Notes under the pieces: model-generated
What the model was told of the DNA's origin: nothing
The model's database searches: none
Seen by the model: only the letters and a program-made list of their open reading frames with translations
Part shown: positions 25,838 to 64,000 of the stretch, piece by piece
How positions within the stretch are numbered: the stretch's first letter is position 1
Layout: every line of letters starts with the position of its first letter
Origin: Micromussa lordhowensis
Lineage: Eukaryota > Cnidaria > Anthozoa > Scleractinia > Lobophylliidae
Direction of reading: 5' to 3'
Length of the DNA stretch: 64,000 nucleotides
Assembly: GCA_964020085.1 (NCBI GenBank)
Contig: OZ026601.1
Span: forward strand, 20,478,930-20,542,929
Made by a program: the position numbers and the translations under genes

Positions 25838-25841
25838 CTTG

Positions 25842-27397
25842 TTGGGAATAAGAGAGATTATTCCGCGCCGTTGACTGATCGACAGAGAACCTGACTGAAA
25901 AGCGAAGTGGAAACTAGCTAGCAGTTCGGTTCGCAACTCGGGCCAGAAAAATTGGTAGAATTCAGCTGAGAAACCGTCTGTGCCTGGTGTTTTGCATTTT
26001 TTGAAATCCTTTACTGCGTTTAGACATTCGGCCTCTGTAATTGGCCCGTCGCATAATTTTTGATCTTCGAGTGATAAAGGTGTTACCAATTCGGCTTTTA
26101 GGAAGTTACCTCCCTGGGGGATGTCTTTGTCACTTTCTTTGAGTTGATAAATTGTTTCGTAGAACTTTTTTTGTTCGTCTAGGATGGCTAATTGATCAAA
26201 AATGTACGTGTTATCGTTTATTTTCAACTTGTCAATGGCTTTTTTGGTTTGGGCACGGTTCTCTAAGCTATAAAAATATCTTGTATTACGTTCGCCTTCT
26301 TCATACCATCTTACCTTACTCCTGAGGATCGCGCCTTTTGTTTTGAAGTGCATGATTTTTTGCAAACGCAATTTTGCTGCGAGAAGCTCGTTTTGGGCGT
26401 GGTTATTGTTAGGATTTCTTTCTAGACTTAGTTGAAGCTCATTTATTTTATTTTGGAGTGTCATTTCTTCATTTCTGCGTTGTATTGCTTTCGTTTTGGC
26501 ATATTTTACAGTGAAACCCCTTATCTCCATTTTTATAAGATCCCATTTCAAACCTTTGTCTTCAACATTTTCGTATTTGACCTTGTACAGCTCGATGTTT
26601 TTGCGAAGAGCGATAACATAGTTGTCATCTACAAGTAAAGAATTATTAAATTTCCAGAAACCTGGGCCTCGGTGTTGTTTTTTAAGTCTGGCCTGGAGGT
26701 GTAAGGAAATTGCAGAATGATCCGTTTCGGGTGCATGAAAAATTTTACACGTCGCATGTAAATTAGCAAGCTCTTCTGAGATTAGAAAGAAATCTAATCT
26801 ACACTGTATCTTATGAGACTTATTTCTCCAAGTGTACGATTCGAGGAGAGGGTTTAACCGACGCCAGATATCGACTAAATTATAAGATGTACACAACTCT
26901 TCGATTTCCTTAATTACAGATACTTTCTGGGTGACTGCGTTTCCACCTTTTTTGTCTTTGTCCGATAAAGCACAATTAAAGTCGCCTCCGATAACAATAT
27001 TTTCCTGTGAAAAGTCTTGCAGCTGGTGATGAAGTGATCTAAAAAATTTGGATTGTTGGTTTAAGTCATTTGGGGCATAGATGTTGACTAAAGTTAAGCG
27101 TGTATCGTCAACTGATACGTCCAGAATGATATATCTTCCGCTTTTGTCAGAAATACACTTTTCTATTTTACAATCAAGTTTTGGGTTTATAAGTATCATT
27201 ACTCCCTTGCTGTTTGATGTACCATGACTGAAAAAAGCACCACCCCACTCAGCGGACCAAGTGTCTACGGTTAGCTTAGTGCTGTGGGTTTCTTGAAGAA
27301 ATATAAATTGAGCGTTTTGGTTATGGATCCACCTAAAAATGGAACGGCGCTTAATCGACTTATTGAGACCTCTTATGTTAATTGAGAGGCACTTCAT
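25842..27397 (-). pseudogene. LINE ORF2 copy 1, truncated at the array edge
   Basis: The first 518 codons of ORF2 (endonuclease and linker) remain; the frame then runs 19 codons into flanking DNA and stops at 25784. The reverse transcriptase core and zinc finger are absent. Lys54 is deleted (3 bp missing at about 27238), and it has the E437 haplotype. The lost part is the 3' half of the element, whereas ordinary LINE truncation removes the 5' side. Confidence 0.9.
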
Positions 27398-27756
27398 GTC
27401 CAGGTTTTCAATAGTGTCTATTGATGGTGTGAATAAATTGACTTAAGTTATGCGTAAGTAAGGCAACTTGAAGTGAGATACAGTTTTGACGGCTTTCTTC
27501 TATCCTCAGGGACTGGAGAAATTTGCATTTGTTGAAGTTTTTAGCATAATATAACAGAGTAAAATAAAATGGAAATAGATAAACACTACCTATAGATGAA
27601 AACACTATAACACTCAAGTAAACAAGGACTGGAATGTTAAAAACATACATCTAAATTTAAACAAGACCTTTTTAATGATCTTGAAAACGCACTAGTTGCG
27701 TTTCGGTCTGGGAATAGCGAATTTAGTTGGATTGGCTGTCAGTTGTTGACATTTGT

Positions 27757-28812
27757 CCGTCCGCTAAAACGAATTAGTGCACAAACAGCTAAATTAAAGC
27801 AGGGACAAATCAAGTGGCTCACCAACGGGCCATAATTTACCTCTAATATAAAGTTTATCAGGCTGAGACTTACTGAATGCGGCTTGGATTTTGTTCCTTT
27901 TTGCGAGTTTGAAAACGTCCATTTGTTTTCTTCTTCTCTCTACAATGCCGTGAGGCAAGTCTTGGTACATTCGGAATTCGGTGCCTTTCAGTCGGTGACC
28001 AAGAGAAAGAATGCGTTCACAATCCTTGTAACGCAAAAATCTGGCGATGATGGGCTTTGGTTTTGTATCATTGCTAGCGCCGGATTTCTTTCTGTTTAGG
28101 CGGTGTACACGTTGCAACTCGACCGATCTGGCGTTTTCGTAACCGAGGTGTGTTTCGAGGAAGTTACGAAGCACATTTTCAGTGTCTTCTTGGTGAGCGC
28201 CATGGCCGGTTTCTCCTTGGATATTCTCGAATTTAATGTTCTCTCGCCTGGAATATGCTTCTAGGTAGAGACTTTTATTTTCCAGCTCTTTGATGTTGCT
28301 CTCTAATTCATTATTTTTCTTAGAAAGTTCGGTCATTTTTAGGTTGGTCTGCTCCTTATATTTATCAAAGCTGTCAGTGGTTTTCCTTTGTTGTTCTTCA
28401 GCGAAATTCAAACTGTCTTTGAGATCGTTTATGACTTGGTTTGACGTGGCTTGAACACTTTCCAAGGCGCAAATTCGGTCGTCCATTCGAGCGAGTGTAT
28501 CTTGTAGGCCTTTGACAGACGTTTCAATTGCATCCAGCTTCTCTAGCTTCGATAAGATTGCTTCCAGTTTTACATCAAGGTTTGCCGGCATCTTTGGTGT
28601 TGTTAAGGAATTGTCGTCTCCTTCGTGGTCAGAAGTCGAGTCGAAATTGAAAGCAGAACTTTTTGGTTTTTTGCTGCTCTTCGACGTTCGGATGGGAGGT
28701 GAGGTTTCCTCCGAAGAAGAGGACAGAAATCTTTTCTTTTCTAATAATTTTTGTATAGTTTGTATAGTTTCAGCCATGAATGGCTGCAAAGTGTAGCTGT
28801 TTTAGCGGACGG
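27757..28812. repeat. 14-bp inverted repeat enclosing ORF1
   Basis: ccgtccgctaaaac at 27757-27770 and its exact reverse complement at 28799-28812 lie just outside the stop and start of ORF1. The same pair is present in every unit. Confidence 0.9.
27794..28789 (-). CDS. LINE ORF1 protein, copy 1
   Basis: 331 codons, ATG at 28789. A Ser/Lys-rich N-terminus is followed by a long coiled coil at about 70-175, then an L1 ORF1p-like RNA-recognition and C-terminal region that begins with SRRENIKFENI (180-190) and contains RVHRLNRKK and a late basic stretch. L1 ORF1 proteins trimerise through the coiled coil, coat the element RNA and act as nucleic-acid chaperones. It precedes ORF2 by about 400 bp on the same strand, the usual LINE order. 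This copy differs from the others by R107C. Intact by length; expression is unknown. Confidence 0.9.
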   Translation of the reverse strand: MQPFMAETIQTIQKLLEKKRFLSSSSEETSPPIRTSKSSKKPKSSAFNFDSTSDHEGDDNSLTTPKMPANLDVKLEAILSKLEKLDAIETSVKGLQDTLARMDDRICALESVQATSNQVINDLKDSLNFAEEQQRKTTDSFDKYKEQTNLKMTELSKKNNELESNIKELENKSLYLEAYSRRENIKFENIQGETGHGAHQEDTENVLRNFLETHLGYENARSVELQRVHRLNRKKSGASNDTKPKPIIARFLRYKDCERILSLGHRLKGTEFRMYQDLPHGIVERRRKQMDVFKLAKRNKIQAAFSKSQPDKLYIRGKLWPVGEPLDLSLL

Positions 28813-28908
28813 CCATAGAAGCACGTCTTTACGCCATTACGTCCCAGGCTCTCTCCCCATTAGACTTGTTGAACTCTTGGATGAGATTCTTGCTTTGGTG
28901 AGTATTCT

Positions 28909-29454
28909 GTGAGTGTCAACTACCACATGATTCTTCATTTACCTGAGCAAATTTTGAACTGGGGTCCTCCAACAGCATGGTGGTGCTTTCCATATGAGAG
29001 ACGAATTGGTGAGCTCAGTGACACCCTAACAAGTGGAAAATCAGTAGAAGAACAAATCTTTAACCACTTTTTCCTTCAACACTGTGCTGACCACCTACCA
29101 ATGCCGGTCCTCCCTTGCACAGTTAGTGAACAACTTCCAACCGCCATAACACCTCTTTTGGAAACTAAATCTTCGGATTGCACATCAGATTTCTATCAAG
29201 CAACATATCTTAGAAGAGTGGCCGAGCATTTTTTCACTGGAGAGGTAAGTTCCATCCACACCTTTGAGATAACACCGGGTGATCCGTTTGAGTTGGTCGA
29301 AAAGGAAGAAGTTTCCCCCTTCAAATTGCCTAACACTAATTACATAAGAATTTACAAATACTTTACAGTTTTAAGGAGCTTACACTATATAGCCACTTAC
29401 AGTACTTACAGAACGATACTACAGTACTTACGAAGAAATGTACTACAAATATAA
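28909..29454 (+). pseudogene. CACTA/EnSpm-type transposase exon fragment in the array spacer, copy 1
   Basis: Opposite in orientation to the LINE. The frame is open from 28885 (no ATG at the start; GTG at 28909). The N-terminal part, NYHMILHLPEQILNWGPP then WWCFPYERRIGEL, matches the pattern of the C-terminal (DUF4218-like) region of TNP2/CACTA transposases, where a GP..W.FPFER core is typical. A consensus splice donor GAG|GTAAGT at 29245 suggests the real exon ends at 29244 and the remaining codons are intronic. No catalytic domain is present. AATAAA motifs follow at about 29515. It may be host DNA that flanked the original LINE insertion and was amplified with it. Confidence 0.6.
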
Positions 29455-29614
29455 GCCTACCTCACTAATATGTAATTTACTTGTATTATTTAAATATAAT
29501 TTTATGTTTTAATATATAAATAAAATTGACAACTACAACAAAGATTTCGGCTGGCTTAAAGAAAAGTGCTACAATAAGTGTAAGTGAAAAGAAAAAAATG
29601 AAGTGAAGTGAAAT

Positions 29615-32600
29615 TTATAGTAGTTTTTCCCAGATGGTCAAGAATTTATGCAGCTTTCTTTGCGCGGTATAACTTTGCTTTAAAATATCAAGTTTGTCTT
29701 GGAGGCGAAGAAGAAAGCCTTCAAAACATAAGATGCCGTCACGTGAACTTGTCGCGAAGATGTGGAATTTTGCAATAAGAAGAGTGACATTAAGTGCCTG
29801 TTTGTTTTTGATATTATTATGCCAACCGTATAGGATATTAGATTCGGTCAAAAAGAGCACTTGATTAAATTTCTGGTACCACCAGCTGGTGAATCTATCC
29901 CAAAAAGCTTTAGATACGGTACAGTGGTACAGTAGGTGGTTTAATGTTTGCTTTTCAATGGCGCATAAGGAACAAATGTCACTTTCAGTAATACCGGCTC
30001 GAAAAAGGCTGGATTTGGTAGGTAAAATGTGGTGTATTATTTTAAACTGAAAGGCAATTAATTTCGAATCTTTAGTTGTTAGGAAAGGCAACGAGTACAC
30101 CTTATGGATGCTTTCCTTGGAGAAACCGTAATTTAGAATTCTATTCTCTGATGACGGTGGACTTACGTTGTTACTTAGAAGTGTAGCGTAGGCTATACGG
30201 GTTGACGGAAGGTCTTCAAGAGGGGCATTTTGGTACAAGTTGTTTTGACTTAACATAGTCTTCCATTCTGTAGGAATGGCAGCGATGAGGCCATAGTACA
30301 GTGTAAAAGGAATATTAATGTTTACTTTAAGAATGAGCTCGTCCAGTGAGAAAAAGGTGTTGTCTTCTTTTAAGAATTGTTTAATGCGTGTAACCTGAGC
30401 CTCAAAAAAGGGTTTGAAAAAAACTGGCTGGTCTCCGATTAGGATCCGACTATTATTTCAAATGATTTTGTTGTGAATACAGTGGTCTTCCGAAAATTTT
30501 TTAGCGTTGTATTCTTGCCAATACTTCAGTAGTGTGTGGTAAAAAGGTGGAAGGTTGTCAAGGCTGAGATATTTGATATCGTACTGACATTCTGTTAGAA
30601 AAGATAAGCCTCCGTATTTGGCAGCAGCGAACTCTGGTATTATTTTCCATGCTGAGTGAACGTGTTCAGTGATTCTCTTGATCCAAGCAATTTTCAGCGC
30701 TTTATTCATGATTTCAAAATCCATCATTCTTAATCCACCCTGACTTATGTCGCTTATTATGGTCTTTCGTTTTATTTTGGCTGGTTTCCCTTCCCATATA
30801 AAATTGAAAGTTAGTTTGTTTATTTCTTTGACGTAAGAATCGGGGATCTCGAGCACGGAGGTGTTATAAATTAGTTTCGACAAACCTAGAGTTTTCACTA
30901 TTTTGATTCTGCCATGGAGGGTAAGCTTCCTTCTTTTCCAGTTCTTAAGCGTATTTTCCAATTTGATAATTTTCTCTCCAAAATTCAGATTATTTGCAGC
31001 GTCGGAGTTATACGAAAAGAAAATCCCGAGAGCTTGAATCGGTTCTTGAGGCCATTTAAAATTATATGGCGTATCAGTTTTGTTTCTCCAAGCTCCAAGC
31101 CACATCGCTTCTGTTTTACTTGTGTTTATTTCTAGACCGGAGGTGTCTTTAAATTCATTTAGAAGTTTCAAAAGGTTGACAACAGACTGATGGTCTTTAA
31201 TGAATACTGTTGTGTCATCGGCGAATTGGGTTACTTTTATTTCCTTTCGGTCGACGGTGATGCCTTTGATGTCGTTGTTATTTTTCAAAGCCCTCGCAAG
31301 AAGCTCAATACCAATTACGAAAAGAAGCCCTGATAAGGGGCAACCTTGCCTGACGCCTCGATGCAGTTGAAAAAAAGGTGACGCGTGACCATTGTTTAGG
31401 ACACAGCTGGATACATTGTGGTAGATGACTTCTATCCATCTTTGAATATCTGGGCCAAAATTGAACAGTCTAAGCGTGGAAAATAGATATTTCCATTTTA
31501 TTGTGTCAAAAGCTTTTCGGAAATCTAAAAAAATTGCGATCCCTGGCATATTGAAGCGTTTAGTGAGAAACATGACATCTTGAATCAATCTGATGTTTTC
31601 GCCTATATAGCGGCCTTTTACATATCCGGTTTGGTCGGGATTGATGATTTTGGGCAAGGTTTTTTCTAATCTTTTGGCAATAACTTTGGTAAGTATTTTA
31701 TAATCAACATTCAATAACGAGATCGGGCGTAGATTTTCTAGTATGGATTTATCTTTGTTCTTTTTGGGAATAAGAGAGATTATTCCGCGCCGTTGACTGA
31801 TCGACAGAGAACCTGACTGAAAAGCGAAGTGGAAACTAGCTAGCAGTTCGGTTCGCAACTCGGGCCAGAAAAATTGGTAGAATTCAGCTGAGAAACCGTC
31901 TGTGCCTGGTGTTTTGCATTTTTTGAAATCCTTTACTGCGTTTAGACATTCGGCCTCTGTAATTGGCCCGTCGCATAATTTTTGATCTTCGAGTGATAAA
32001 GGTGTTACCAATTTGGCTTTTAGGAAGTTACCTCCCTGGGGGATGTCTTTGTCACTTTCTTTGAGTTGATAAATTGTTTCGTAGAACTTTTTTTGTTCGT
32101 CTAGGATGGCTAATTGATCAAAAATGTAGGTGTTATCGTTTATTTTCAACTTGTCAATGGCTTTTTTGGTTTGGGCACGGTTCTCTAAGCTATAAAAATA
32201 TCTTGTATTACGTTCGCCTTCTTCATACCATCTTACCTTACTCCTGAGGATCGCGCCTTTTGTTTTGAAGTGCATGATTTTTTGCAAACGCAATTTTGCT
32301 GCGAGAAGCTCGTTTTGGGCGTGGTTATTGTTAGGATTTCTTTCTAGACTTAGTTGAAGCTCATTTATTTTATTTTGGAGTGTCATTTCTTCATTTCTGC
32401 GTTGTATTGCTTTCGTTTTGGCATATTTTACAGTGAAACCCCTTATCTCCATTTTTATAAGATCCCATTTCAAACCTTTGTCTTCAACATTTTCGTATTT
32501 GACCTTGTACAGCTCGATGTTTTTGCGAAGAGCGATAACATAGTTGTCATCTACAAGTAAAGAATTATTAAATTTCCAGAAACCTGGGCCTCGGTGTTGT

Positions 32601-33322
32601 TTTTTAAGTCTGGCCTGGAGGTGTAAGGAAATTGCAGAATGATCCGTTTCGGGTGCATGAAAAATTTTACACGTCGCATGTAAATTAGCAAGCTCTTCTG
32701 AGATTAGAAAGAAATCTAATCTACACTGTATCTTATGAGACTTATTTCTCCAAGTGTACGATTCGAGGAGAGGGTTTAACCGACGCCAGATATCGACTAA
32801 ATTATAAGATGTACACAACTCTTCGATTTCCTTAATTACAGATACTTTCTGGGTGACCGCGTTTCCACCTTTTTTGTCTTTGTCCGATAAAGCACAATTA
32901 AAGTCGCCTCCGATAACAATATTTTCCTGTGAAAAGTCTTGCAGCTGGTGATGAAGTGATCTAAAAAATTTGGATTGTTGGTTTAAGTCATTTGGGGCAT
33001 AGATGTTGACTAAAGTTAAGCGTGTATCGTCAACTGACACGTCCAGAATGATATATCTTCCGCTTTTGTCAGAAATACACTTTTCTATTTTACAATCAAG
33101 TTTTGGGTTTATAAGTATCATTACTCCCTTGCTGTTTGATGTACCATGACTGAAAAAAGCTTTACCACCCCACTCAGCGGACCAAGTGTCTACGGTTAGC
33201 TTAGTGCTGTGGGTTTCTTGAAGAAATATAAATTGAGCGTTTTGGTTATGGATCCACCTAAAAATGGAACGGCGCTTAATCGACTTATTGAGACCTCTTA
33301 TGTTAATTGAGAGGCACTTCAT
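29615..33322 (-). pseudogene. LINE ORF2 copy 2, W955 nonsense
   Basis: Full-length frame of 1235 codons except that the TGG for W955 is TGA (30458-30460). The first product would keep endonuclease and reverse transcriptase but lose the C-terminal 280 residues, including the CCHC zinc finger. It also carries L839F and the K437 haplotype. Confidence 0.95.
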
Positions 33323-33718
33323 GTCCAGGTTTTCAATAGTGTCTATTGATGGTGTGAATAAATTGACTTAAGTTATGCGTAAGTAAGGCAACTTGAAGTG
33401 AGATACAGTTTTGACGGCTTTCTTCTATCCTCAGGGACTGGAGAAATTTGCATTTGTTGAAGTTTTTAGCATAATATAACAGAGTAAAATAAAATGGAAA
33501 TAGATAAACACTACCTATAGATGAAAACACTATAACACTCAAGTAAACAAGGACTGGAATGTTAAAAACATACATCTAAATTTAAACAAGACCTTTTTAA
33601 TGATCTTGAAAACGCACTAGTTGCGTTTCGGTCTGGGAATAGCGAATTTAGTTGGATTGGCTGTCAGTTGTTGACATTTGTCCGTCCGCTAAAACGAATT
33701 AGTGCACAAACAGCTAAA

Positions 33719-34714
33719 TTAAAGCAGGGACAAATCAAGTGGCTCACCAACGGGCCATAATTTACCTCTAATATAAAGTTTATCAGGCTGAGACTTACTG
33801 AATGCGGCTTGGATTTTGTTCCTTTTTGCGAGTTTGAAAACGTCCATTTGTTTTCTTCTTCTCTCTACAATGCCGTGAGGCAAGTCTTGGTACATTCGGA
33901 ATTCGGTGCCTTTCAGTCGGTGACCAAGAGAAAGAATGCGTTCACAATCCTTGTAACGCAAAAATCTGGCGATGATGGGCTTTGGTTTTGTATCATTGCT
34001 AGCGCCGGATTTCTTTCTGTTTAGGCGGTGTACACGTTGCAACTCGACCGATCTGGCGTTTTCGTAACCGAGGTGTGTTTCGAGGAAGTTACGAAGCACA
34101 TTTTCAGTGTCTTCTTGGTGAGCGCCATGGCCGGTTTCTCCTTGGATATTCTCGAATTTAATGTTCTCTCGCCTGGAATATGCTTCTAGGTAGAGACTTT
34201 TATTTTCCAGCTCTTTGATGTTGCTCTCTAATTCATTATTTTTCTTAGAAAGTTCGGTCATTTTTAGGTTGGTCTGCTCCTTATATTTATCAAAGCTGTC
34301 AGTGGTTTTCCTTTGTTGTTCTTCAGCGAAATTCAAACTGTCTTTGAGATCGTTTATGACTTGGTTTGACGTGGCTTGAACACTTTCCAAGGCGCGAATT
34401 CGGTCGTCCATTCGAGCGAGTGTATCTTGTAGGCCTTTGACAGACGTTTCAATTGCATCCAGCTTCTCTAGCTTCGATAAGATTGCTTCCAGTTTTACAT
34501 CAAGGTTTGCCGGCATCTTTGGTGTTGTTAAGGAATTGTCGTCTCCTTCGTGGTCAGAAGTCGAGTCGAAATTGAAAGCAGAACTTTTTGGTTTTTTGCT
34601 GCTCTTCGACGTTCGGATGGGAGGTGAGGTTTCCTCCGAAGAAGAGGACAGAAATCTTTTCTTTTCTAATAATTTTTGTATAGTTTGTATAGTTTCAGCC
34701 ATGAATGGCTGCAA
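33719..34714 (-). CDS. LINE ORF1 protein, copy 2
   Basis: 331 codons, R107 form, identical in protein sequence to copies 3, 5 and 6. Confidence 0.9.
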   Translation of the reverse strand: MQPFMAETIQTIQKLLEKKRFLSSSSEETSPPIRTSKSSKKPKSSAFNFDSTSDHEGDDNSLTTPKMPANLDVKLEAILSKLEKLDAIETSVKGLQDTLARMDDRIRALESVQATSNQVINDLKDSLNFAEEQQRKTTDSFDKYKEQTNLKMTELSKKNNELESNIKELENKSLYLEAYSRRENIKFENIQGETGHGAHQEDTENVLRNFLETHLGYENARSVELQRVHRLNRKKSGASNDTKPKPIIARFLRYKDCERILSLGHRLKGTEFRMYQDLPHGIVERRRKQMDVFKLAKRNKIQAAFSKSQPDKLYIRGKLWPVGEPLDLSLL

Positions 34715-34833
34715 AGTGTAGCTGTTTTAGCGGACGGCCATAGAAGCACGTCTTTACGCCATTACGTCCCAGGCTCTCTCCCCATTAGACTTGTTGAACT
34801 CTTGGATGAGATTCTTGCTTTGGTGAGTATTCT

Positions 34834-35379
34834 GTGAGTGTCAACTACCACATGATTCTTCATTTACCTGAGCAAATTTTGAACTGGGGTCCTCCAACAG
34901 CATGGTGGTGCTTTCCATATGAGAGACGAATTGGTGAGCTCAGTGACACCCTAACAAGTGGAAAATCAGTAGAAGAACAAATCTTTAACCACTTTTTCCT
35001 TCAACACTGTGCTGACCACCTACCAATGCCGGTCCTCCCTTGCACAGTTAGTGAACAACTTCCAACCGCCATAACACCTCTTTTGGAAACTAAATCTTCG
35101 GATTGCACATCAGATTTCTATCAAGCAACATATCTTAGAAGAGTGGCCGAGCATTTTTTCACTGGAGAGGTAAGTTCCATCCACACCTTTGAGATAACAC
35201 CGGGTGATCCGTTTGAGTTGGTCGAAAAGGAAGAAGTTTCCCCCTTCAAATTGCCTAACACTAATTACATAAGAATTTACAAATACTTTACAGTTTTAAG
35301 GAGCTTACACTATATAGCCACTTACAGTACTTACAGAACGATACTACAGTACTTACGAAGAAATGTACTACAAATATAA
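34834..35379 (+). pseudogene. CACTA-type exon fragment in spacer, copy 2
   Basis: Same 181-codon frame as at 28909-29454; spacer carries the T variant at ccccat(t/c)agac. Confidence 0.6.
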
Positions 35380-35539
35380 GCCTACCTCACTAATATGTAA
35401 TTTACTTGTATTATTTAAATATAATTTTATGTTTTAATATATAAATAAAATTGACAACTACAACAAAGATTTCGGCTGGCTTAAAGAAAAGTGCTACAAT
35501 AAGTGTAAGTGAAAAGAAAAAAATGAAGTGAAGTGAAAT

Positions 35540-39247: not shown

Positions 39248-39257
39248 GTCCAGGTTT

Positions 39258-53463: not shown

Positions 53464-54459
53464 TTAAAGCAGGGACAAATCAAGTGGCTCACCAACGGGC
53501 CATAATTTACCTCTAATATAAAGTTTATCAGGCTGAGACTTACTGAATGCGGCTTGGATTTTGTTCCTTTTTGCGAGTTTGAAAACGTCCATTTGTTTTC
53601 TTCTTCTCTCTACAATGCCGTGAGGCAAGTCTTGGTACATTCGGAATTCGGTGCCTTTCAGTCGGTGACCAAGAGAAAGAATGCGTTCACAATCCTTGTA
53701 ACGCAAAAATCTGGCGATGATGGGCTTTGGTTTTGTATCATTGCTAGCGCCGGATTTCTTTCTGTTTAGGCGGTGTACACGTTGCAACTCGACCGATCTG
53801 GCGTTTTCGTAACCGAGGTGTGTTTCGAGGAAGTTACGAAGCACATTTTCAGTGTCTTCTTGGTGAGCGCCATGGCCGGTTTCTCCTTGGATATTCTCGA
53901 ATTTAATGTTCTCTCGCCTGGAATATGCTTCTAGGTAGAGACTTTTATTTTCCAGCTCTTTGATGTTGCTCTCTAATTCATTATTTTTCTTAGAAAGTTC
54001 GGTCATTTTTAGGTTGGTCTGCTCCTTATATTTATCAAAGCTGTCAGTGGTTTTCCTTTGTTGTTCTTCAGCGAAATTCAAACTGTCTTTGAGATCGTTT
54101 ATGACTTGGTTTGACGTGGCTTGAACACTTTCCAAGGCGCGAATTCGGTCGTCCATTCGAGCGAGTGTATCTTGTAGGCCTTTGACAGACGTTTCAATTG
54201 CATCCAGCTTCTCTAGCTTCGATAAGATTGCTTCCAGTTTTACATCAAGGTTTGCCGGCATCTTTGGTGTTGTTAAGGAATTGTCGTCTCCTTCGTGGTC
54301 AGAAGTCGAGTCGAAATTGAAAGCAGAACTTTTTGGTTTTTTGCTGCTCTTCGACGTTCGGATGGGAGGTGAGGTTTCCTCCGAAGAAGAGGACAGAAAT
54401 CTTTTCTTTTCTAATAATTTTTGTATAGTTTGTATAGTTTCAGCCATGAATGGCTGCAA
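53464..54459 (-). CDS. LINE ORF1 protein, copy 5
   Basis: 331 codons, common form, followed by a T-type spacer. Confidence 0.9.
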   Translation of the reverse strand: MQPFMAETIQTIQKLLEKKRFLSSSSEETSPPIRTSKSSKKPKSSAFNFDSTSDHEGDDNSLTTPKMPANLDVKLEAILSKLEKLDAIETSVKGLQDTLARMDDRIRALESVQATSNQVINDLKDSLNFAEEQQRKTTDSFDKYKEQTNLKMTELSKKNNELESNIKELENKSLYLEAYSRRENIKFENIQGETGHGAHQEDTENVLRNFLETHLGYENARSVELQRVHRLNRKKSGASNDTKPKPIIARFLRYKDCERILSLGHRLKGTEFRMYQDLPHGIVERRRKQMDVFKLAKRNKIQAAFSKSQPDKLYIRGKLWPVGEPLDLSLL

Positions 54460-54578
54460 AGTGTAGCTGTTTTAGCGGACGGCCATAGAAGCACGTCTTT
54501 ACGCCATTACGTCCCAGGCTCTCTCCCCATTAGACTTGTTGAACTCTTGGATGAGATTCTTGCTTTGGTGAGTATTCT

Positions 54579-55124
54579 GTGAGTGTCAACTACCACATGA
54601 TTCTTCATTTACCTGAGCAAATTTTGAACTGGGGTCCTCCAACAGCATGGTGGTGCTTTCCATATGAGAGACGAATTGGTGAGCTCAGTGACACCCTAAC
54701 AAGTGGAAAATCAGTAGAAGAACAAATCTTTAACCACTTTTTCCTTCAACACTGTGCTGACCACCTACCAATGCCGGTCCTCCCTTGCACAGTTAGTGAA
54801 CAACTTCCAACCGCCATAACACCTCTTTTGGAAACTAAATCTTCGGATTGCACATCAGATTTCTATCAAGCAACATATCTTAGAAGAGTGGCCGAGCATT
54901 TTTTCACTGGAGAGGTAAGTTCCATCCACACCTTTGAGATAACACCGGGTGATCCGTTTGAGTTGGTCGAAAAGGAAGAAGTTTCCCCCTTCAAATTGCC
55001 TAACACTAATTACATAAGAATTTACAAATACTTTACAGTTTTAAGGAGCTTACACTATATAGCCACTTACAGTACTTACAGAACGATACTACAGTACTTA
55101 CGAAGAAATGTACTACAAATATAA
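54579..55124 (+). pseudogene. CACTA-type exon fragment in spacer, copy 5
   Basis: Same frame, spacer T variant. Confidence 0.6.
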
Positions 55125-55284
55125 GCCTACCTCACTAATATGTAATTTACTTGTATTATTTAAATATAATTTTATGTTTTAATATATAAATAAAATTGAC
55201 AACTACAACAAAGATTTCGGCTGGCTTAAAGAAAAGTGCTACAATAAGTGTAAGTGAAAAGAAAAAAATGAAGTGAAGTGAAAT

Positions 55285-58200
55285 TTATAGTAGTTTTTCC
55301 CAGATGGTCAAGAATTTATGCAGCTTTCTTTGCGCGGTATAACTTTGCTTTAAAATATCAAGTTTGTCTTGGAGGCGAAGAAGAAAGCCTTCAAAACATA
55401 AGATGCCGTCACGTGAACTTGTCGCGAAGATGTGGAATTTTGCAATAAGAAGAGTGACATTAAGTGCCTGTTTGTTTTTGATATTATTATGCCAACCGTA
55501 TAGGATATTAGATTCGGTCAAAAAGAGCACTTGATTAAATTTCTGGTACCACCAGCTGGTGAATCTATCCCAAAAAGCTTTAGATACGGTACAGTGGTAC
55601 AGTAGGTGGTTTAATGTTTGCTTTTCAATGGCGCATAAGGAACAAATGTCACTTTCAGTAATACCGGCTCGAAAAAGGCTGGATTTGGTAGGTAAAATGT
55701 GGTGTATTATTTTAAACTGAAAGGCAATTAATTTCGAATCTTTAGTTGTTAGGAAAGGCAACGAGTACACCTTATGGATGCTTTCCTTGGAGAAACCGTA
55801 ATTTAGAATTCTATTCTCTGATGACGGTGGACTTACGTTGTTACTTAGAAGTGTAGCGTAGGCTATACGGGTTGACGGAAGGTCTTCAAGAGGGGCATTT
55901 TGGTACAAGTTGTTTTGACTTAACATAGTCTTCCATTCTGTAGGAATGGCAGCGATGAGGCCATAGTACAGTGTAAAAGGAATATTAATGTTTACTTTAA
56001 GAATGAGCTCGTCCAGTGAGAAAAAGGTGTTGTCTTCTTTTAAGAATTGTTTAATGCGTGTAACCTGAGCCTCAAAAAAGGGTTTGAAAAAAACTGGCTG
56101 GTCTCCGATTAGGATCCGACTATTATTCCAAATGATTTTGTTGTGAATACAGTGGTCTTCCGAAAATTTTTTAGCGTTGTATTCTTGCCAATACTTCAGT
56201 AGTGTGTGGTAAAAAGGTGGAAGGTTGTCAAGGCTGAGATATTTGATATCGTACTGACATTCTGTTAGAAAAGATAAGCCTCCGTATTTGGCAGCAGCGA
56301 ACTCTGGTATTATTTTCCATGCTGAGTGAACGTGTTCAGTGATTCTCTTGATCCAAGCAATTTTCAGCGCTTTATTCATGATTTCAAAATCCATCATTCT
56401 TAATCCACCCTGACTTATGTCGCTTATTATGGTCTTTCGTTTTATTTTGGCTGGTTTCCCTTCCCATATAAAATTCAAAGTTAGTTTGTTTATTTCTTTG
56501 ACGTAAGAATCGGGGATCTCGAGCACGGAGGTGTTATAAATTAGTTTCGACAAACCTAGAGTTTTCACTATTTTGATTCTGCCATGGAGGGTAAGCTTCC
56601 TTCTTTTCCAGTTCTTAAGCGTATTTTCCAATTTGATAATTTTCTCTCCAAAATTCAGATTATTTGCAGCGTCGGAGTTATACGAAAAGAAAATCCCGAG
56701 AGCTTGAATCGGTTCTTGAGGCCATTTAAAATTATATGGCGTATCAGTTTTGTTTCTCCAAGCTCCAAGCCACATCGCTTCTGTTTTACTTGTGTTTATT
56801 TCTAGACCGGAGGTGTCTTTAAATTCATTTAGAAGTTTCAAAAGGTTGACAACAGACTGATGGTCTTTAATGAATACTGTTGTGTCATCGGCGAATTGGG
56901 TTACTTTTATTTCCTTTCGGTCGACGGTGATGCCTTTGATGTCGTTGTTATTTTTCAAAGCCCTCGCAAGAAGCTCAATACCAATTACGAAAAGAAGCCC
57001 TGATAAGGGGCAACCTTGCCTGACGCCTCGATGCAGTTGAAAAAAAGGTGACGCGTGACCATTGTTTAGGACACAGCTGGATACATTGTGGTAGATGACT
57101 TCTATCCATCTTTGAATATCTGGGCCAAAATTGAACAGTCTAAGCGTGGAAAATAGATATTTCCATTTTATTGTGTCAAAAGCTTTTCGGAAATCTAAAA
57201 AAATTGCGATCCCTGGCATATTGAAGCGTTTAGTGAGAAACATGACATCTTGAATCAATCTGATGTTTTCGCCTATATAGCGGCCTTTTACATATCCGGT
57301 TTGGTCGGGATTGATGATTTTGGGCAAGGTTTTTTCTAATCTTTTGGCAATAACTTTGGTAAGTATTTTATAATCAACATTCAATAACGAGATCGGGCGT
57401 AGATTTTCTAGTATGGATTTATCTTTGTTCTTTTTGGGAATAAGAGAGATTATTCCGCGCCGTTGACTGATCGACAGAGAACCTGACTGAAAAGCGAAGT
57501 GGAAACTAGCTAGCAGTTCGGTTCGCAACTCGGGCCAGAAAAATTGGTAGAATTCAGCTGAGAAACCGTCTGTGCCTGGTGTTTTGCATTTTTTGAAATC
57601 CTTTACTGCGTTTAGACATTCGGCCTCTGTAATTGGCCCGTCGCATAATTTTTGATCTTCGAGTGATAAAGGTGTTACCAATTTGGCTTTTAGGAAGTTA
57701 CCTCCCTGGGGGATGTCTTTGTCACTTTCTTTGAGTTGATAAATTGTTTCGTAGAACTTTTTTTGTTCGTCTAGGATGGCTAATTGATCAAAAATGTAGG
57801 TGTTATCGTTTATTTTCAACTTGTCAATGGCTTTTTTGGTTTGGGCACGGTTCTCTAAGCTATAAAAATATCTTGTATTACGTTCGCCTTCTTCATACCA
57901 TCTTACCTTACTCCTGAGGATCGCGCCTTTTGTTTTGAAGTGCATGATTTTTTGCAAACGCAATTTTGCTGCGAGAAGCTCGTTTTGGGCGTGGTTATTG
58001 TTAGGATTTCTTTCTAGACTTAGTTGAAGCTCATTTATTTTATTTTGGAGTGTCATTTCTTCATTTCTGCGTTGTATTGCTTTCGTTTTGGCATATTTTA
58101 CAGTGAAACCCCTTATCTCCATTTTTATAAGATCCCATTTCAAACCTTTGTCTTCAACATTTTCGTATTTGACCTTGTACAGCTCGATGTTTTTGCGAAG

Positions 58201-58992
58201 AGCGATAACATAGTTGTCATCTACAAGTAAAGAATTATTAAATTTCCAGAAACCTGGGCCTCGGTGTTGTTTTTTAAGTCTGGCCTGGAGGTGTAAGGAA
58301 ATTGCAGAATGATCCGTTTCGGGTGCATGAAAAATTTTACACGTCGCATGTAAATTAGCAAGCTCTTCTGAGATTAGAAAGAAATCTAATCTACACTGTA
58401 TCTTATGAGACTTATTTCTCCAAGTGTACGATTCGAGGAGAGGGTTTAACCGACGCCAGATATCGACTAAATTATAAGATGTACACAACTCTTCGATTTC
58501 CTTAATTACAGATACTTTCTGGGTGACCGCGTTTCCACCTTTTTTGTCTTTGTCCGATAAAGCACAATTAAAGTCGCCTCCGATAACAATATTTTCCTGT
58601 GAAAAGTCTTGCAGCTGGTGATGAAGTGATCTAAAAAATTTGGATTGTTGGTTTAAGTCATTTGGGGCATAGATGTTGACTAAAGTTAAGCGTGTATCGT
58701 CAACTGACACGTCCAGAATGATATATCTTCCGCTTTTGTCAGAAATACACTTTTCTATTTTACAATCAAGTTTTGGGTTTATAAGTATCATTACTCCCTT
58801 GCTGTTTGATGTACCATGACTGAAAAAAGCTTTACCACCCCACTCAGCGGACCAAGTGTCTACGGTTAGCTTAGTGCTGTGGGTTTCTTGAAGAAATATA
58901 AATTGAGCGTTTTGGTTATGGATCCACCTAAAAATGGAACGGCGCTTAATCGACTTATTGAGACCTCTTATGTTAATTGAGAGGCACTTCAT
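55285..58992 (-). CDS. LINE ORF2, copy 6: intact endonuclease-reverse transcriptase
   Basis: 1235 codons, identical in protein sequence to copy 3 at 35540-39247, including K437, N794 and L839. With the ORF1 at 59389-60384 it makes a second unit that is complete in coding terms. Its 5' and 3' junctions are with neighbouring units, so whether it can be transcribed from its own promoter is unknown. Confidence 0.95.
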   Translation of the reverse strand: MKCLSINIRGLNKSIKRRSIFRWIHNQNAQFIFLQETHSTKLTVDTWSAEWGGKAFFSHGTSNSKGVMILINPKLDCKIEKCISDKSGRYIILDVSVDDTRLTLVNIYAPNDLNQQSKFFRSLHHQLQDFSQENIVIGGDFNCALSDKDKKGGNAVTQKVSVIKEIEELCTSYNLVDIWRRLNPLLESYTWRNKSHKIQCRLDFFLISEELANLHATCKIFHAPETDHSAISLHLQARLKKQHRGPGFWKFNNSLLVDDNYVIALRKNIELYKVKYENVEDKGLKWDLIKMEIRGFTVKYAKTKAIQRRNEEMTLQNKINELQLSLERNPNNNHAQNELLAAKLRLQKIMHFKTKGAILRSKVRWYEEGERNTRYFYSLENRAQTKKAIDKLKINDNTYIFDQLAILDEQKKFYETIYQLKESDKDIPQGGNFLKAKLVTPLSLEDQKLCDGPITEAECLNAVKDFKKCKTPGTDGFSAEFYQFFWPELRTELLASFHFAFQSGSLSISQRRGIISLIPKKNKDKSILENLRPISLLNVDYKILTKVIAKRLEKTLPKIINPDQTGYVKGRYIGENIRLIQDVMFLTKRFNMPGIAIFLDFRKAFDTIKWKYLFSTLRLFNFGPDIQRWIEVIYHNVSSCVLNNGHASPFFQLHRGVRQGCPLSGLLFVIGIELLARALKNNNDIKGITVDRKEIKVTQFADDTTVFIKDHQSVVNLLKLLNEFKDTSGLEINTSKTEAMWLGAWRNKTDTPYNFKWPQEPIQALGIFFSYNSDAANNLNFGEKIIKLENTLKNWKRRKLTLHGRIKIVKTLGLSKLIYNTSVLEIPDSYVKEINKLTLNFIWEGKPAKIKRKTIISDISQGGLRMMDFEIMNKALKIAWIKRITEHVHSAWKIIPEFAAAKYGGLSFLTECQYDIKYLSLDNLPPFYHTLLKYWQEYNAKKFSEDHCIHNKIIWNNSRILIGDQPVFFKPFFEAQVTRIKQFLKEDNTFFSLDELILKVNINIPFTLYYGLIAAIPTEWKTMLSQNNLYQNAPLEDLPSTRIAYATLLSNNVSPPSSENRILNYGFSKESIHKVYSLPFLTTKDSKLIAFQFKIIHHILPTKSSLFRAGITESDICSLCAIEKQTLNHLLYHCTVSKAFWDRFTSWWYQKFNQVLFLTESNILYGWHNNIKNKQALNVTLLIAKFHIFATSSRDGILCFEGFLLRLQDKLDILKQSYTAQRKLHKFLTIWEKLL

Positions 58993-59388
58993 GTCCAGGT
59001 TTTCAATAGTGTCTATTGATGGTGTGAATAAATTGACTTAAGTTATGCGTAAGTAAGGCAACTTGAAGTGAGATACAGTTTTGACGGCTTTCTTCTATCC
59101 TCAGGGACTGGAGAAATTTGCATTTGTTGAAGTTTTTAGCATAATATAACAGAGTAAAATAAAATGGAAATAGATAAACACTACCTATAGATGAAAACAC
59201 TATAACACTCAAGTAAACAAGGACTGGAATGTTAAAAACATACATCTAAATTTAAACAAGACCTTTTTAATGATCTTGAAAACGCACTAGTTGCGTTTCG
59301 GTCTGGGAATAGCGAATTTAGTTGGATTGGCTGTCAGTTGTTGACATTTGTCCGTCCGCTAAAACGAATTAGTGCACAAACAGCTAAA

Positions 59389-60384
59389 TTAAAGCAGGGA
59401 CAAATCAAGTGGCTCACCAACGGGCCATAATTTACCTCTAATATAAAGTTTATCAGGCTGAGACTTACTGAATGCGGCTTGGATTTTGTTCCTTTTTGCG
59501 AGTTTGAAAACGTCCATTTGTTTTCTTCTTCTCTCTACAATGCCGTGAGGCAAGTCTTGGTACATTCGGAATTCGGTGCCTTTCAGTCGGTGACCAAGAG
59601 AAAGAATGCGTTCACAATCCTTGTAACGCAAAAATCTGGCGATGATGGGCTTTGGTTTTGTATCATTGCTAGCGCCGGATTTCTTTCTGTTTAGGCGGTG
59701 TACACGTTGCAACTCGACCGATCTGGCGTTTTCGTAACCGAGGTGTGTTTCGAGGAAGTTACGAAGCACATTTTCAGTGTCTTCTTGGTGAGCGCCATGG
59801 CCGGTTTCTCCTTGGATATTCTCGAATTTAATGTTCTCTCGCCTGGAATATGCTTCTAGGTAGAGACTTTTATTTTCCAGCTCTTTGATGTTGCTCTCTA
59901 ATTCATTATTTTTCTTAGAAAGTTCGGTCATTTTTAGGTTGGTCTGCTCCTTATATTTATCAAAGCTGTCAGTGGTTTTCCTTTGTTGTTCTTCAGCGAA
60001 ATTCAAACTGTCTTTGAGATCGTTTATGACTTGGTTTGACGTGGCTTGAACACTTTCCAAGGCGCGAATTCGGTCGTCCATTCGAGCGAGTGTATCTTGT
60101 AGGCCTTTGACAGACGTTTCAATTGCATCCAGCTTCTCTAGCTTCGATAAGATTGCTTCCAGTTTTACATCAAGGTTTGCCGGCATCTTTGGTGTTGTTA
60201 AGGAATTGTCGTCTCCTTCGTGGTCAGAAGTCGAGTCGAAATTGAAAGCAGAACTTTTTGGTTTTTTGCTGCTCTTCGACGTTCGGATGGGAGGTGAGGT
60301 TTCCTCCGAAGAAGAGGACAGAAATCTTTTCTTTTCTAATAATTTTTGTATAGTTTGTATAGTTTCAGCCATGAATGGCTGCAA
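59389..60384 (-). CDS. LINE ORF1 protein, copy 6
   Basis: 331 codons, common form; belongs with ORF2 copy 6. Confidence 0.9.
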   Translation of the reverse strand: MQPFMAETIQTIQKLLEKKRFLSSSSEETSPPIRTSKSSKKPKSSAFNFDSTSDHEGDDNSLTTPKMPANLDVKLEAILSKLEKLDAIETSVKGLQDTLARMDDRIRALESVQATSNQVINDLKDSLNFAEEQQRKTTDSFDKYKEQTNLKMTELSKKNNELESNIKELENKSLYLEAYSRRENIKFENIQGETGHGAHQEDTENVLRNFLETHLGYENARSVELQRVHRLNRKKSGASNDTKPKPIIARFLRYKDCERILSLGHRLKGTEFRMYQDLPHGIVERRRKQMDVFKLAKRNKIQAAFSKSQPDKLYIRGKLWPVGEPLDLSLL

Positions 60385-60503
60385 AGTGTAGCTGTTTTAG
60401 CGGACGGCCATAGAAGCACGTCTTTACGCCATTACGTCCCAGGCTCTCTCCCCATTAGACTTGTTGAACTCTTGGATGAGATTCTTGCTTTGGTGAGTAT
60501 TCT

Positions 60504-61049
60504 GTGAGTGTCAACTACCACATGATTCTTCATTTACCTGAGCAAATTTTGAACTGGGGTCCTCCAACAGCATGGTGGTGCTTTCCATATGAGAGACGAA
60601 TTGGTGAGCTCAGTGACACCCTAACAAGTGGAAAATCAGTAGAAGAACAAATCTTTAACCACTTTTTCCTTCAACACTGTGCTGACCACCTACCAATGCC
60701 GGTCCTCCCTTGCACAGTTAGTGAACAACTTCCAACCGCCATAACACCTCTTTTGGAAACTAAATCTTCGGATTGCACATCAGATTTCTATCAAGCAACA
60801 TATCTTAGAAGAGTGGCCGAGCATTTTTTCACTGGAGAGGTAAGTTCCATCCACACCTTTGAGATAACACCGGGTGATCCGTTTGAGTTGGTCGAAAAGG
60901 AAGAAGTTTCCCCCTTCAAATTGCCTAACACTAATTACATAAGAATTTACAAATACTTTACAGTTTTAAGGAGCTTACACTATATAGCCACTTACAGTAC
61001 TTACAGAACGATACTACAGTACTTACGAAGAAATGTACTACAAATATAA
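60504..61049 (+). pseudogene. CACTA-type exon fragment in spacer, copy 6
   Basis: Same frame, spacer T variant. Confidence 0.6.
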
Positions 61050-61209
61050 GCCTACCTCACTAATATGTAATTTACTTGTATTATTTAAATATAATTTTAT
61101 GTTTTAATATATAAATAAAATTGACAACTACAACAAAGATTTCGGCTGGCTTAAAGAAAAGTGCTACAATAAGTGTAAGTGAAAAGAAAAAAATGAAGTG
61201 AAGTGAAAT

Positions 61210-64000
61210 TTATAGTAGTTTTTCCCAGATGGTCAAGAATTTATGCAGCTTTCTTTGCGCGGTATAACTTTGCTTTAAAATATCAAGTTTGTCTTGGAGG
61301 CGAAGAAGAAAGCCTTCAAAACATAAGATGCCGTCACGTGAACTTGTCGCGAAGATGTGGAATTTTGCAATAAGAAGAGTGACATTAAGTGCCTGTTTGT
61401 TTTTGATATTATTATGCCAACCGTATAGGATATTAGATTCGGTCAAAAAGAGCACTTGATTAAATTTCTGGTACCACCAGCTGGTGAATCTATCCCAAAA
61501 AGCTTTAGATACGGTACAGTGGTACAGTAGGTGGTTTAATGTTTGCTTTTCAATGGCGCATAAGGAACAAATGTCACTTTCAGTAATACCGGCTCGAAAA
61601 AGGCTGGATTTGGTAGGTAAAATGTGGTGTATTATTTTAAACTGAAAGGCAATTAATTTCGAATCTTTAGTTGTTAGGAAAGGCAACGAGTACACCTTAT
61701 GGATGCTTTCCTTGGAGAAACCGTAATTTAGAATTCTATTCTCTGATGACGGTGGACTTACGTTGTTACTTAGAAGTGTAGCGTAGGCTATACGGGTTGA
61801 CGGAAGGTCTTCAAGAGGGGCATTTTGGTACAAGTTGTTTTGACTTAACATAGTCTTCCATTCTGTAGGAATGGCAGCGATGAGGCCATAGTACAGTGTA
61901 AAAGGAATATTAATGTTTACTTTAAGAATGAGCTCGTCCAGTGAGAAAAAGGTGTTGTCTTCTTTTAAGAATTGTTTAATGCGTGTAACCTGAGCCTCAA
62001 AAAAGGGTTTGAAAAAAACTGGCTGGTCTCCGATTAGGATCCGACTATTATTCCAAATGATTTTGTTGTGAATACAGTGGTCTTCCGAAAATTTTTTAGC
62101 GTTGTATTCTTGCCAATACTTCAGTAGTGTGTGGTAAAAAGGTGGAAGGTTGTCAAGGCTGAGATATTTGATATCGTACTGACATTCTGTTAGAAAAGAT
62201 AAGCCTCCGTATTTGGCAGCAGCGAACTCTGGTATTATTTTCCATGCTGAGTGAACGTGTTCAGTGATTCTCTTGATCCAAGCAATTTTCAGCGCTTTAT
62301 TCATGATTTCAAAATCCATCATTCTTAATCCACCCTGACTTATGTCGCTTATTATGGTCTTTCGTTTTATTTTGGCTGGTTTCCCTTCCCATATAAAATT
62401 CAAAGTTAGTTTGTTTATTTCTTTGACGTAAGAATCGGGGATCTCGAGCACGGAGGTGTTATAAATTAGTTTCGACAAACCTAGAGTTTTCACTATTTTG
62501 ATTCTGCCATGGAGGGTAAGCTTCCTTCTTTTCCAGTTCTTAAGCGTATTTTCCAATTTGATAATTTTCTCTCCAAAATTCAGATTATTTGCAGCGTCGG
62601 AGTTATACGAAAAGAAAATCCCGAGAGCTTGAATCGGTTCTTGAGGCCATTTAAAATTATATGGCGTATCAGTTTTGTTTCTCCAAGCTCCAAGCCACAT
62701 CGCTTCTGTTTTACTTGTGTTTATTTCTAGACCGGAGGTGTCTTTAAATTCATTTAGAAGTTTCAAAAGGTTGACAACAGACTGATGGTCTTTAATGAAT
62801 ACTGTTGTGTCATCGGCGAATTGGGTTACTTTTATTTCCTTTCGGTCGACGGTGATGCCTTTGATGTCGTTGTTATTTTTCAAAGCCCTCGCAAGAAGCT
62901 CAATACCAATTACGAAAAGAAGCCCTGATAAGGGGCAACCTTGCCTGACGCCTCGATGCAGTTGAAAAAAAGGTGACGCGTGACCATTGTTTAGGACACA
63001 GCTGGATACATTGTGGTAGATGACTTCTATCCATCTTTGAATATCTGGGCCAAAATTGAACAGTCTAAGCGTGGAAAATAGATATTTCCATTTTATTGTG
63101 TCAAAAGCTTTTCGGAAATCTAAAAAAATTGCGATCCCTGGCATATTGAAGCGTTTAGTGAGAAACATGACATCTTGAATCAATCTGATGTTTTCGCCTA
63201 TATAGCGGCCTTTTACATATCCGGTTTGGTCGGGATTGATGATTTTGGGCAAGGTTTTTTCTAATCTTTTGGCAATAACTTTGGTAAGTATTTTATAATC
63301 AACATTCAATAACGAGATCGGGCGTAGATTTTCTAGTATGGATTTATCTTTGTTCTTTTTGTGAATAAGAGAGATTATTCCGCGCCGTTGACTGATCGAC
63401 AGAGAACCTGACTGAAAAGCGAAGTGGAAACTAGCTAGCAGTTCGGTTCGCAACTCGGGCCAGAAAAATTGGTAGAATTCAGCTGAGAAACCGTCTGTGC
63501 CTGGTGTTTTGCATTTTTTGAAATCCTTTACTGCGTTTAGACATTCGGCCTCTGTAATTGGCCCGTCGCATAATTTTTGATCTTCGAGTGATAAAGGTGT
63601 TACCAATTTGGCTTTTAGGAAGTTACCTCCCTGGGGGATGTCTTTGTCACTTTCTTTGAGTTGATAAATTGTTTCGTAGAACTTTTTTTGTTCGTCTAGG
63701 ATGGCTAATTGATCAAAAATGTAGGTGTTATCGTTTATTTTCAACTTGTCAATGGCTTTTTTGGTTTGGGCACGGTTCTCTAAGCTATAAAAATATCTTG
63801 TATTACGTTCGCCTTCTTCATACCATCTTACCTTACTCCTGAGGATCGCGCCTTTTGTTTTGAAGTGCATGATTTTTTGCAAACGCAATTTTGCTGCGAG
63901 AAGCTCGTTTTGGGCGTGGTTATTGTTAGGATTTCTTTCTAGACTTAGTTGAAGCTCATTTATTTTATTTTGGAGTGTCATTTCTTCATTTCTGCGTTGT
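61210..64000 (-). CDS. LINE ORF2, copy 7, running off the window
   Basis: The C-terminal 930 or so codons are present and open; the endonuclease and start lie beyond 64000. It carries P519H (63361-63363), unique in the array, at the entrance to the reverse transcriptase domain, and the K437 haplotype. Confidence 0.9.
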   Translation of the reverse strand, partial: QRRNEEMTLQNKINELQLSLERNPNNNHAQNELLAAKLRLQKIMHFKTKGAILRSKVRWYEEGERNTRYFYSLENRAQTKKAIDKLKINDNTYIFDQLAILDEQKKFYETIYQLKESDKDIPQGGNFLKAKLVTPLSLEDQKLCDGPITEAECLNAVKDFKKCKTPGTDGFSAEFYQFFWPELRTELLASFHFAFQSGSLSISQRRGIISLIHKKNKDKSILENLRPISLLNVDYKILTKVIAKRLEKTLPKIINPDQTGYVKGRYIGENIRLIQDVMFLTKRFNMPGIAIFLDFRKAFDTIKWKYLFSTLRLFNFGPDIQRWIEVIYHNVSSCVLNNGHASPFFQLHRGVRQGCPLSGLLFVIGIELLARALKNNNDIKGITVDRKEIKVTQFADDTTVFIKDHQSVVNLLKLLNEFKDTSGLEINTSKTEAMWLGAWRNKTDTPYNFKWPQEPIQALGIFFSYNSDAANNLNFGEKIIKLENTLKNWKRRKLTLHGRIKIVKTLGLSKLIYNTSVLEIPDSYVKEINKLTLNFIWEGKPAKIKRKTIISDISQGGLRMMDFEIMNKALKIAWIKRITEHVHSAWKIIPEFAAAKYGGLSFLTECQYDIKYLSLDNLPPFYHTLLKYWQEYNAKKFSEDHCIHNKIIWNNSRILIGDQPVFFKPFFEAQVTRIKQFLKEDNTFFSLDELILKVNINIPFTLYYGLIAAIPTEWKTMLSQNNLYQNAPLEDLPSTRIAYATLLSNNVSPPSSENRILNYGFSKESIHKVYSLPFLTTKDSKLIAFQFKIIHHILPTKSSLFRAGITESDICSLCAIEKQTLNHLLYHCTVSKAFWDRFTSWWYQKFNQVLFLTESNILYGWHNNIKNKQALNVTLLIAKFHIFATSSRDGILCFEGFLLRLQDKLDILKQSYTAQRKLHKFLTIWEKLL

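Follow-up and report, generated by a model that had tools for sequence, protein, structure and literature searches.

A tandem array of a nearly whole L1-type LINE and a CACTA fragment in the coral Micromussa lordhowensis

Introduction

Telomeric retrotransposon arrays of the HeT-A/TART type are located at chromosome ends, and McGurk and Barbash are said to have described in 2018 a route from TE double insertion to satellite arrays, in which the TE dimer serves as the substrate for unequal exchange. Among LINEs, R1 of Drosophila forms tandem head-to-tail arrays; the same odd junction recurs between units in D. melanogaster and is read as the amplification of one unique event, and unequal exchange was proposed for the arrays of the X-linked region (PMC2718515, PMC12400953). 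Satellites derived from LINE fragments include the cetacean, PROsat, and HinfI repeats, whose monomers resemble part of a LINE (PMC9659126). LINE-1-rich 'arrays' in the mouse are defined by LINE density and comprise many separate L1s, and none of the full-length L1s of the array studied had intact ORFs (PMC5848613). Among the titles and abstracts listed by phrase searches of the open-licence literature, 15–30 per search and in part off-topic, none described an entire L1-type LINE in tandem array, which does not establish its absence from print, and no LINE arrays were found in passages of a coral genome paper on tandem duplications (PMC10236652).

Here, we describe an array in Micromussa lordhowensis for which the R1 arrays are the nearest precedent. 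Both consist of head-to-tail LINEs, with one recurrent junction here as in D. melanogaster, but R1 is specific for 28S rDNA, with its arrays in or beside the rDNA, whereas the element described here is an L1-type LINE that is not tied to rDNA and carries a CACTA piece within its unit. Neither a 28S rDNA location (no Rfam match at gathering scores in the window) nor an R1 target duplication between copies was found, the spacer being CACTA-type. The array is situated at 20.5–20.6 Mb of the 37.8-Mb contig C7 and, unlike telomeric arrays, not at a chromosome end. The mouse arrays share long LINE-1-dominated stretches with our locus but are not one repeated unit, and the LINE-fragment satellites are likewise LINE-derived tandem repeats, whereas here the unit holds nearly the whole element.

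Results

The window, i.e., the whole 64,000-nucleotide stretch analysed, contains the left part of the array (25844..64000, minus strand), and full coordinates carry its numbering on rightward past 64000. In the assembly, the array comprises 18 head-to-tail copies, 16 of them complete, over 105.4 kb, and runs from 25844 to full coordinate 131219 (C7:20610148), 67 kb beyond the window. Each unit combines a minus-strand L1-type LINE with a foreign filler of ~40 bp and a 439-bp stretch from a transposase gene of the CACTA type. The sequence-only reading had described at least 38 kb of near-identical, complete LINE copies with a non-LINE spacer, all in one orientation and with an exact 5,925-bp period. 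The head-to-tail arrangement, single orientation, and near identity were confirmed from about 25844 to 64000, and the length proved to be an underestimate. The exact period did not hold, as consecutive copies inside the window are offset by 5922, 5925, 6986, and 6834 bp; over the whole array the spacing is 5,925 bp, the exceptions being three units with younger insertions and two with small deletions (3 bp in U00 and 2 bp in U07, the latter outside the window). With a kilobase-sized unit repeated head to tail at high identity at one locus, the array has, in this one assembly, the structure of a TE-derived macrosatellite.

The leftmost unit, U00 (25844..29331), is partial and is without the LINE 3' part. 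It is followed, all on the minus strand, by U01 (29332..35256; complete, 5925 bp), in which ORF2 is broken into 954 aa and 213 aa; U02 (35257..41181; complete, 5925 bp), with both ORF1 and ORF2 open; U03 (41182..48167; 6986 bp), carrying inserts A and B; U04 (48168..55001; 6834 bp), carrying insert A; U05 (55002..60926; complete, 5925 bp), with both frames open; and U06 (60927..64000), which is split by the window end and is whole in the genome, again with both frames open. On the left, the array is bounded by a Helitron-like element (1..25843, plus strand), which is not part of it and whose 3' terminus adjoins U00. Two further copies, holding both of its parts at matching positions, suggest that it extends over at least 25.8 kb, and it encodes Helitron_like_N, PIF1, and Herpes_teg_N domains; a palindrome is located 6 bp before its terminus, beside the LINE T run. 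When the remainder of U00 was sought just to the left of the array on C7, where the sequence is partly N, it was found neither with a LINE 3'-end query (among the best 40 of 53 candidates) nor with a mid-ORF2 query (among the best 40 of 256). The right end of the array is native CACTA flank, collinear with the paralogues, and the outermost right copy has zero private bases over its 4,145 bp.

In U02, ORF2 (35540..39247, minus strand; 1235 aa) is L1 ORF2p-like, with an AP endonuclease, a reverse transcriptase, and a zf-RVT domain (Pfam PF03372, PF00078, PF13966). Its best PDB match was L1 ORF2p (E 1.9e-110), ahead of R2, and by this ORF2, with its AP endonuclease and a reverse transcriptase closest to L1 ORF2p, the element is classed as L1-type. 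ORF1 (39644..40627, minus strand; 327 aa from the ATG) matched L1 ORF1p weakly in the PDB (E 7.5e-4) and, in Pfam, gave a sub-threshold BLOC1_2 match alone.

The spacer closing U01 comprises a 439-bp piece, termed AB, from a tnp2 transposase gene of the CACTA type (34818..35256, plus strand; PF02992, E 2.1e-15) and ~40 bp of filler between this piece and the LINE 5' end (34778..34817, minus strand), about 37 bp of which match coding-like sequence on contig C15. The spacer is non-LINE, as the sequence-only reading had it. Its identity as a LINE untranslated region was rejected, since 8/8 full-length dispersed 5' ends start no more than 9 bp from the filler's LINE side. A known structured RNA or tRNA is likewise unsupported, with no Rfam match in the spacer at gathering scores (three chance-level ones, E 1–5) and no tRNA by ARAGORN. 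At the founder junction (35256..35257), the LINE breaks off with ~90 bp of its 3' end still to come and passes directly into CACTA sequence with a 2-bp overlap (AG, by eye), which is weak evidence for the origin favoured below. This LINE-spacer-LINE junction is identical in 17/17 spacers and, among the best 40 of 66 candidates, was found only in the array on C7. When every candidate was scored, AB occurred, whole or in part, at 21 places, namely the 17 spacers, three paralogues, and one lone 66-bp piece. The three paralogues are uninterrupted CACTA copies that display the pre-insertion site, and in all of them AB is intact and runs straight on into the sequence that forms the right flank of the array. 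The 66-bp piece, termed A (35191..35256), is single there, and a further copy is located past the outermost right copy of the array (full coordinates 131154-131219). The absence of target duplications between units, claimed earlier, stands for short ones, with this recurrence of 66 bp of CACTA beyond the last copy to be added.

Dispersed copies of the LINE differ from the array in their 3' end. About 90 bp of extra 3' sequence were present in 9/9 dispersed copies examined and nowhere in the array region, so the array LINE is not complete as first described. An A-rich tail was found in eight of the nine, the ninth (L041, on C3) having been examined for the extra sequence alone. Seven dispersed copies were compared at both ends; six had exact target duplications of 10–16 bp, and none was found for L025. 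No array copy has the complete 3' end with tail and the short target duplication of an ordinary insertion. Seven dispersed copies diverge by 0.5–2.7% from the array unit, and the flanks are unrelated, except in three copies on C10 with a common 5' flank. At unit positions 110 and 297, the founder base occurs in every array copy covering the site and in 0/9 dispersed copies, and that at position 5051 in every covering array copy and 0/6 dispersed copies; column 5455, within the filler, had no counterpart among the dispersed copies. Ancestral states at key columns depend on one or two dispersed copies. With the array's diagnostic bases in 0/9, the array as the source of the examined dispersed copies is unsupported.

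Pairwise comparison of the 16 complete units gave, on average, 5.9 substitutions per 5,925 bp (range 0–12), and all four combinations of variants occur in 37 of 91 pairs of informative sites. Insert A, of 907 bp with inverted ends and a TA duplication, is located at 42915..43821 in U03 and 49901..50807 in U04, and is the same at 907/907 bases in these two and in U15, ~66 kb from U04; insert B (43998..44138; 141 bp, with an 11-bp duplication by eye) is found in U03 only. Exchange subsequent to the amplification is supported by the mosaic variants and by the insertion common to U03, U04, and U15. A Mantel test gave no significant excess of similarity between neighbouring units over distant ones (r 0.16; 972/10,000 permutations at least as high), so that growth from one neighbour to the next is not established.

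Discussion

The units most likely multiplied by errors of recombination and not by jumping. Without the usual 3' end and tail, they were probably propagated as DNA repeats and not as mobile copies, even though both reading frames are open in 9 of the 16 complete units. The shared junction in 17/17 spacers, the shared insertions, and the mosaic variants support the earlier proposal of a LINE-derived macrosatellite amplified at the DNA level. Considering the missing 3' end and the pre-insertion site in the CACTA copies, we infer, with a probability of roughly 60%, that one LINE insertion into CACTA, one tandem duplication, and unequal exchange made the array. One L1-type LINE would have entered the CACTA-type transposase gene by target-primed reverse transcription, acquiring ~40 bp of 5' filler. 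One tandem duplication, presumably through end joining, would then have linked the LINE, cut ~90 bp from its 3' end, to CACTA 439 bp upstream of the insertion, leaving two adjacent 5,925-bp segments of CACTA piece, filler, and LINE. Being long and identical, these segments could have reached a number of 18 through unequal exchange, sister or homologous, and their likeness may have been maintained by exchange or by gene conversion. A 1,714-bp deletion would later have shortened the outermost right copy, and the Helitron-like element would have inserted into the outermost left one. Unequal exchange also fits best among the three mechanisms first suggested.

The dimer could alternatively have arisen by the route of McGurk and Barbash, from a shortened LINE with a 66-bp target duplication and a full-length LINE inserted 439 bp away, followed by unequal exchange. 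The shortened right copy is bordered by exact repeats (66/66 bases) of the 66-bp piece that is single in the paralogues, and the later deletion, an extra step that counts against the favoured origin, would be unnecessary. However, the shortened copy would have to lack the ~90 bp present in 9/9 dispersed copies, and 66 bp far exceeds the 10–16 bp duplications of six dispersed copies. The right copy is also without a private base, against a dispersed divergence of 0.5–2.7%, although gene conversion could mask this. We regard this double insertion as rather unlikely, and a dimer from one insertion and one tandem duplication as the more probable. Circle-based amplification, in which a circle of LINE and CACTA piece underwent rolling-circle replication and returned to the genome, would account for the uniform unit and the one junction. 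With the right end in native CACTA flank, however, it is unnecessary, as integration by homology at the same place would be required, and exchange would have to explain the mosaic variants anyway; it may have served for first steps but is improbable as the origin of the array.

An assembly artefact, with fewer real units multiplied by the assembler, is suggested by hard-to-resolve exact self-matches of up to 11,061 bp and by complete units that are identical in two cases (U05 = U11, U06 = U08). This is very unlikely given 27 variable columns across the array, three units with large inserts, no exact repeat of a two-unit block, and differences between adjacent complete units in 15/15 comparisons, although the assembled copy number may still contain an error. 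Site-specific insertion of one LINE after another into each other's ends, as for ancestral-type R1, would produce the head-to-tail order, but it hardly deserves credence when every spacer holds the same 439 bp and ~40 bp, the LINE tail sequence is missing from the array region, and the dispersed copies, save the three on C10, lie in unrelated flanks.

Under the favoured origin, a LINE and a scrap of a second element were multiplied together, and a repeat that is otherwise dispersed became a young, satellite-like array. The emergence of a satellite from almost an entire LINE would have been caught early enough to read the founding event, through the pre-insertion site in three paralogues, the single founder junction, and later insertions marking exchanges. 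This would extend a route known from rDNA-bound R1 to an L1-type LINE elsewhere. It is conceivable, though we consider it a long shot, that a fixed macrosatellite locus with intact proteins and without the 3' end for mobility provides dispersed copies in trans with ORF1 and ORF2 protein, or feeds small-RNA silencing, its own copies multiplying by recombination alone. Because ATTAAA is still present in the 3' UTR of the array LINE, loss of polyadenylation in its units is uncertain.

Organization and coding content of the LINE array

In the assembly, the array consists of a partial unit at its left edge (U00), sixteen complete units (U01–U16), and a partial outermost right unit (U17). Reading the sequence rightward beyond the window (C7:20478930-20542929) placed its right limit at full coordinate 131219, in window numbering, for a total of 105.4 kb. 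Self-comparison of the window gave offsets of 5922, 5925, 6986, and 6834 bp at 99.7–100% identity. In the genome searched (580.8 Mb, 1,383 contigs), 17 whole LINE–spacer–LINE matches were identified, every one in the array, with 40 of 66 candidate places scored. The LINE lies on the minus strand. Its ORF2 (1,235 aa) contains AP endonuclease, reverse transcriptase, and zf-RVT domains and has L1 ORF2p as its closest PDB match, while ORF1 (327 aa) weakly matches L1 ORF1p. Neither frame is interrupted in 9 of the 16 complete units; U17 retains ORF2 and has lost ORF1. Among the 120 listed of 1,061 ORF2 relatives, the three with a species name come from the stony coral Oculina patagonica (46–61% identity), which points to a cnidarian source, probably a coral.

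The spacer is composed of two parts, of 439 bp and about 40 bp. The 439-bp part had 21 candidate places; all were scored and all matched, 17 being spacers, one an isolated 66-bp end, and three other loci, on C5 (98%), C9 (97%), and C8 (89%). At these three loci it is uninterrupted and contiguous with the sequence forming the array's right flank, and the C5 locus has an open frame with a match to the tnp2 transposase PF02992 (E 2.1e-15), a marker of CACTA elements; on this basis, the 439-bp part is, as judged from sequence, a fragment of a CACTA-type transposase gene. A DUF4218 match in the same frame was below cut-off. The remaining part, the filler, is neither CACTA nor LINE sequence: the LINE 5′ start lies at the filler's far edge, on its LINE side, or inside its last 9 bp in all eight full-length dispersed copies examined (six distinct flanks). 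A 37-bp stretch spanning the filler shares 92–95% identity with a coding-like sequence on C15 (retrieved locus L049 1-6001, C15:6491400-6497400), and the filler may have been copied at the LINE 5′ end while the LINE inserted. Full-length dispersed LINEs at three retrieved loci on C10 (L042, L045, and L046) share one 5′ flank, and are thus perhaps a duplicated segment.

Origin of the unit joint and of the right end

All nine dispersed copies examined carry about 90 bp of additional 3′ sequence, followed by an A-rich tail in all eight whose tail was viewed. Exact target duplications of 10–16 bp were present in six of the seven copies compared at both ends and not found in the seventh. Since this LINE end is absent from the array region, where LINE and CACTA sequence join with a 2-bp overlap, the joint is not a normal insertion end. 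One ATTAAA is still there in the array LINE 3′ UTR, so polyadenylation would be weakened and not necessarily lost. At C3:8747845-8748345, neighbouring fragments of a dispersed copy point in opposite directions, which may reflect a 5′ inversion.

At the right end, U17 breaks off in the inter-ORF region and is followed by 66 bp of the CACTA piece and then by the native CACTA flank. This arrangement can be explained by a second, shortened LINE with a 66-bp target duplication; however, the copy lacks the usual 3′ end, a duplication of 66 bp is outside the range seen in this LINE family, and no base is private to U17, though divergence from the array unit is 0.5–2.7% in seven dispersed copies. For these reasons, a deletion of 1,714 bp from the outer unit is preferred.

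The nearest precedent is the R1 arrays of Drosophila. PMC2718515 interprets those of seven species as insertions into the target duplication and those of D. melanogaster as the amplification of a single odd event. For the X-linked region, PMC12400953 puts forward unequal exchange together with higher-order blocks. The present array also resembles the amplification of one odd event; in contrast to the R1 arrays, its LINE is L1-type, it lies outside the rDNA, and its unit is composite.

Variation among units and consistency of the assembly

The units have 27 variable columns, 14 of them informative, and 37 of 91 informative site pairs show all four combinations. Insert A (907 bp, MITE-like, with inverted ends and a TA duplication; window 42915-43821 and 49901-50807) occurs only in the adjacent U03 and U04 and, about 66 kb off, in U15, with identical sequence, while U03 alone holds a further insert of 141 bp that shows an A run and a duplication of 11 bp (window 43998-44138). 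U03, U15, and U16 carry all of a five-site haplotype, of which U00, U04, U07, U10, and U17 carry a part, and the derived form is found in ten units; when each site is polarized with one or two dispersed copies, the haplotype looks ancestral. Old variants tend to persist near the array ends, as would be expected under unequal exchange, with exceptions (old variants in U03, U04, U07, and U10, and derived U01, U02, and U14 near the ends). No significant neighbour effect was found among the units.

All 15 adjacent complete-unit pairs differ and no exactly recurring two-unit block was found in the array, which argues against a simple assembly duplication; the copy number is provisional, being that of the assembly. 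Two pairs of complete units are identical, however (U05 = U11, U06 = U08), and exact self-matches extend to 11,061 bp.

The left neighbour

At the left boundary, LINE sequence starts where an interspersed repeat ends. Among the 45 left-flank matches listed, 40 share an end point to within 3 bp, with 40 of the 518 candidates scored, and at two other loci read the repeat terminus is followed by other sequence. Given the Helitron-type genes in the window (Rep/helicase ORFs at 1093-8694), the neighbour (window 1-25843, a predicted length of at least 25.8 kb), which also has a Herpes_teg_N domain, is read as a Helitron-like element that entered U00 at a T run. A 3′ palindrome and TT targets are reported for Helentron termini (PMC4067079). 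The window's first kilobase is 99% identical in two further copies, one on C2 (from 40734134 to 40759487 or beyond) and one on C8 (from 16991368 or earlier to 17014046); compared at that kilobase and at the 3′ end, they span 25.4 and 22.7 kb from that match to the matching 3′ end. The window's left part also holds a 321-bp tandem repeat of 10.7 copies with a higher-order spacing of about 963 bp (window 17496-20937), and a short element with inverted ends, recognized by eye (window 24856-25256).
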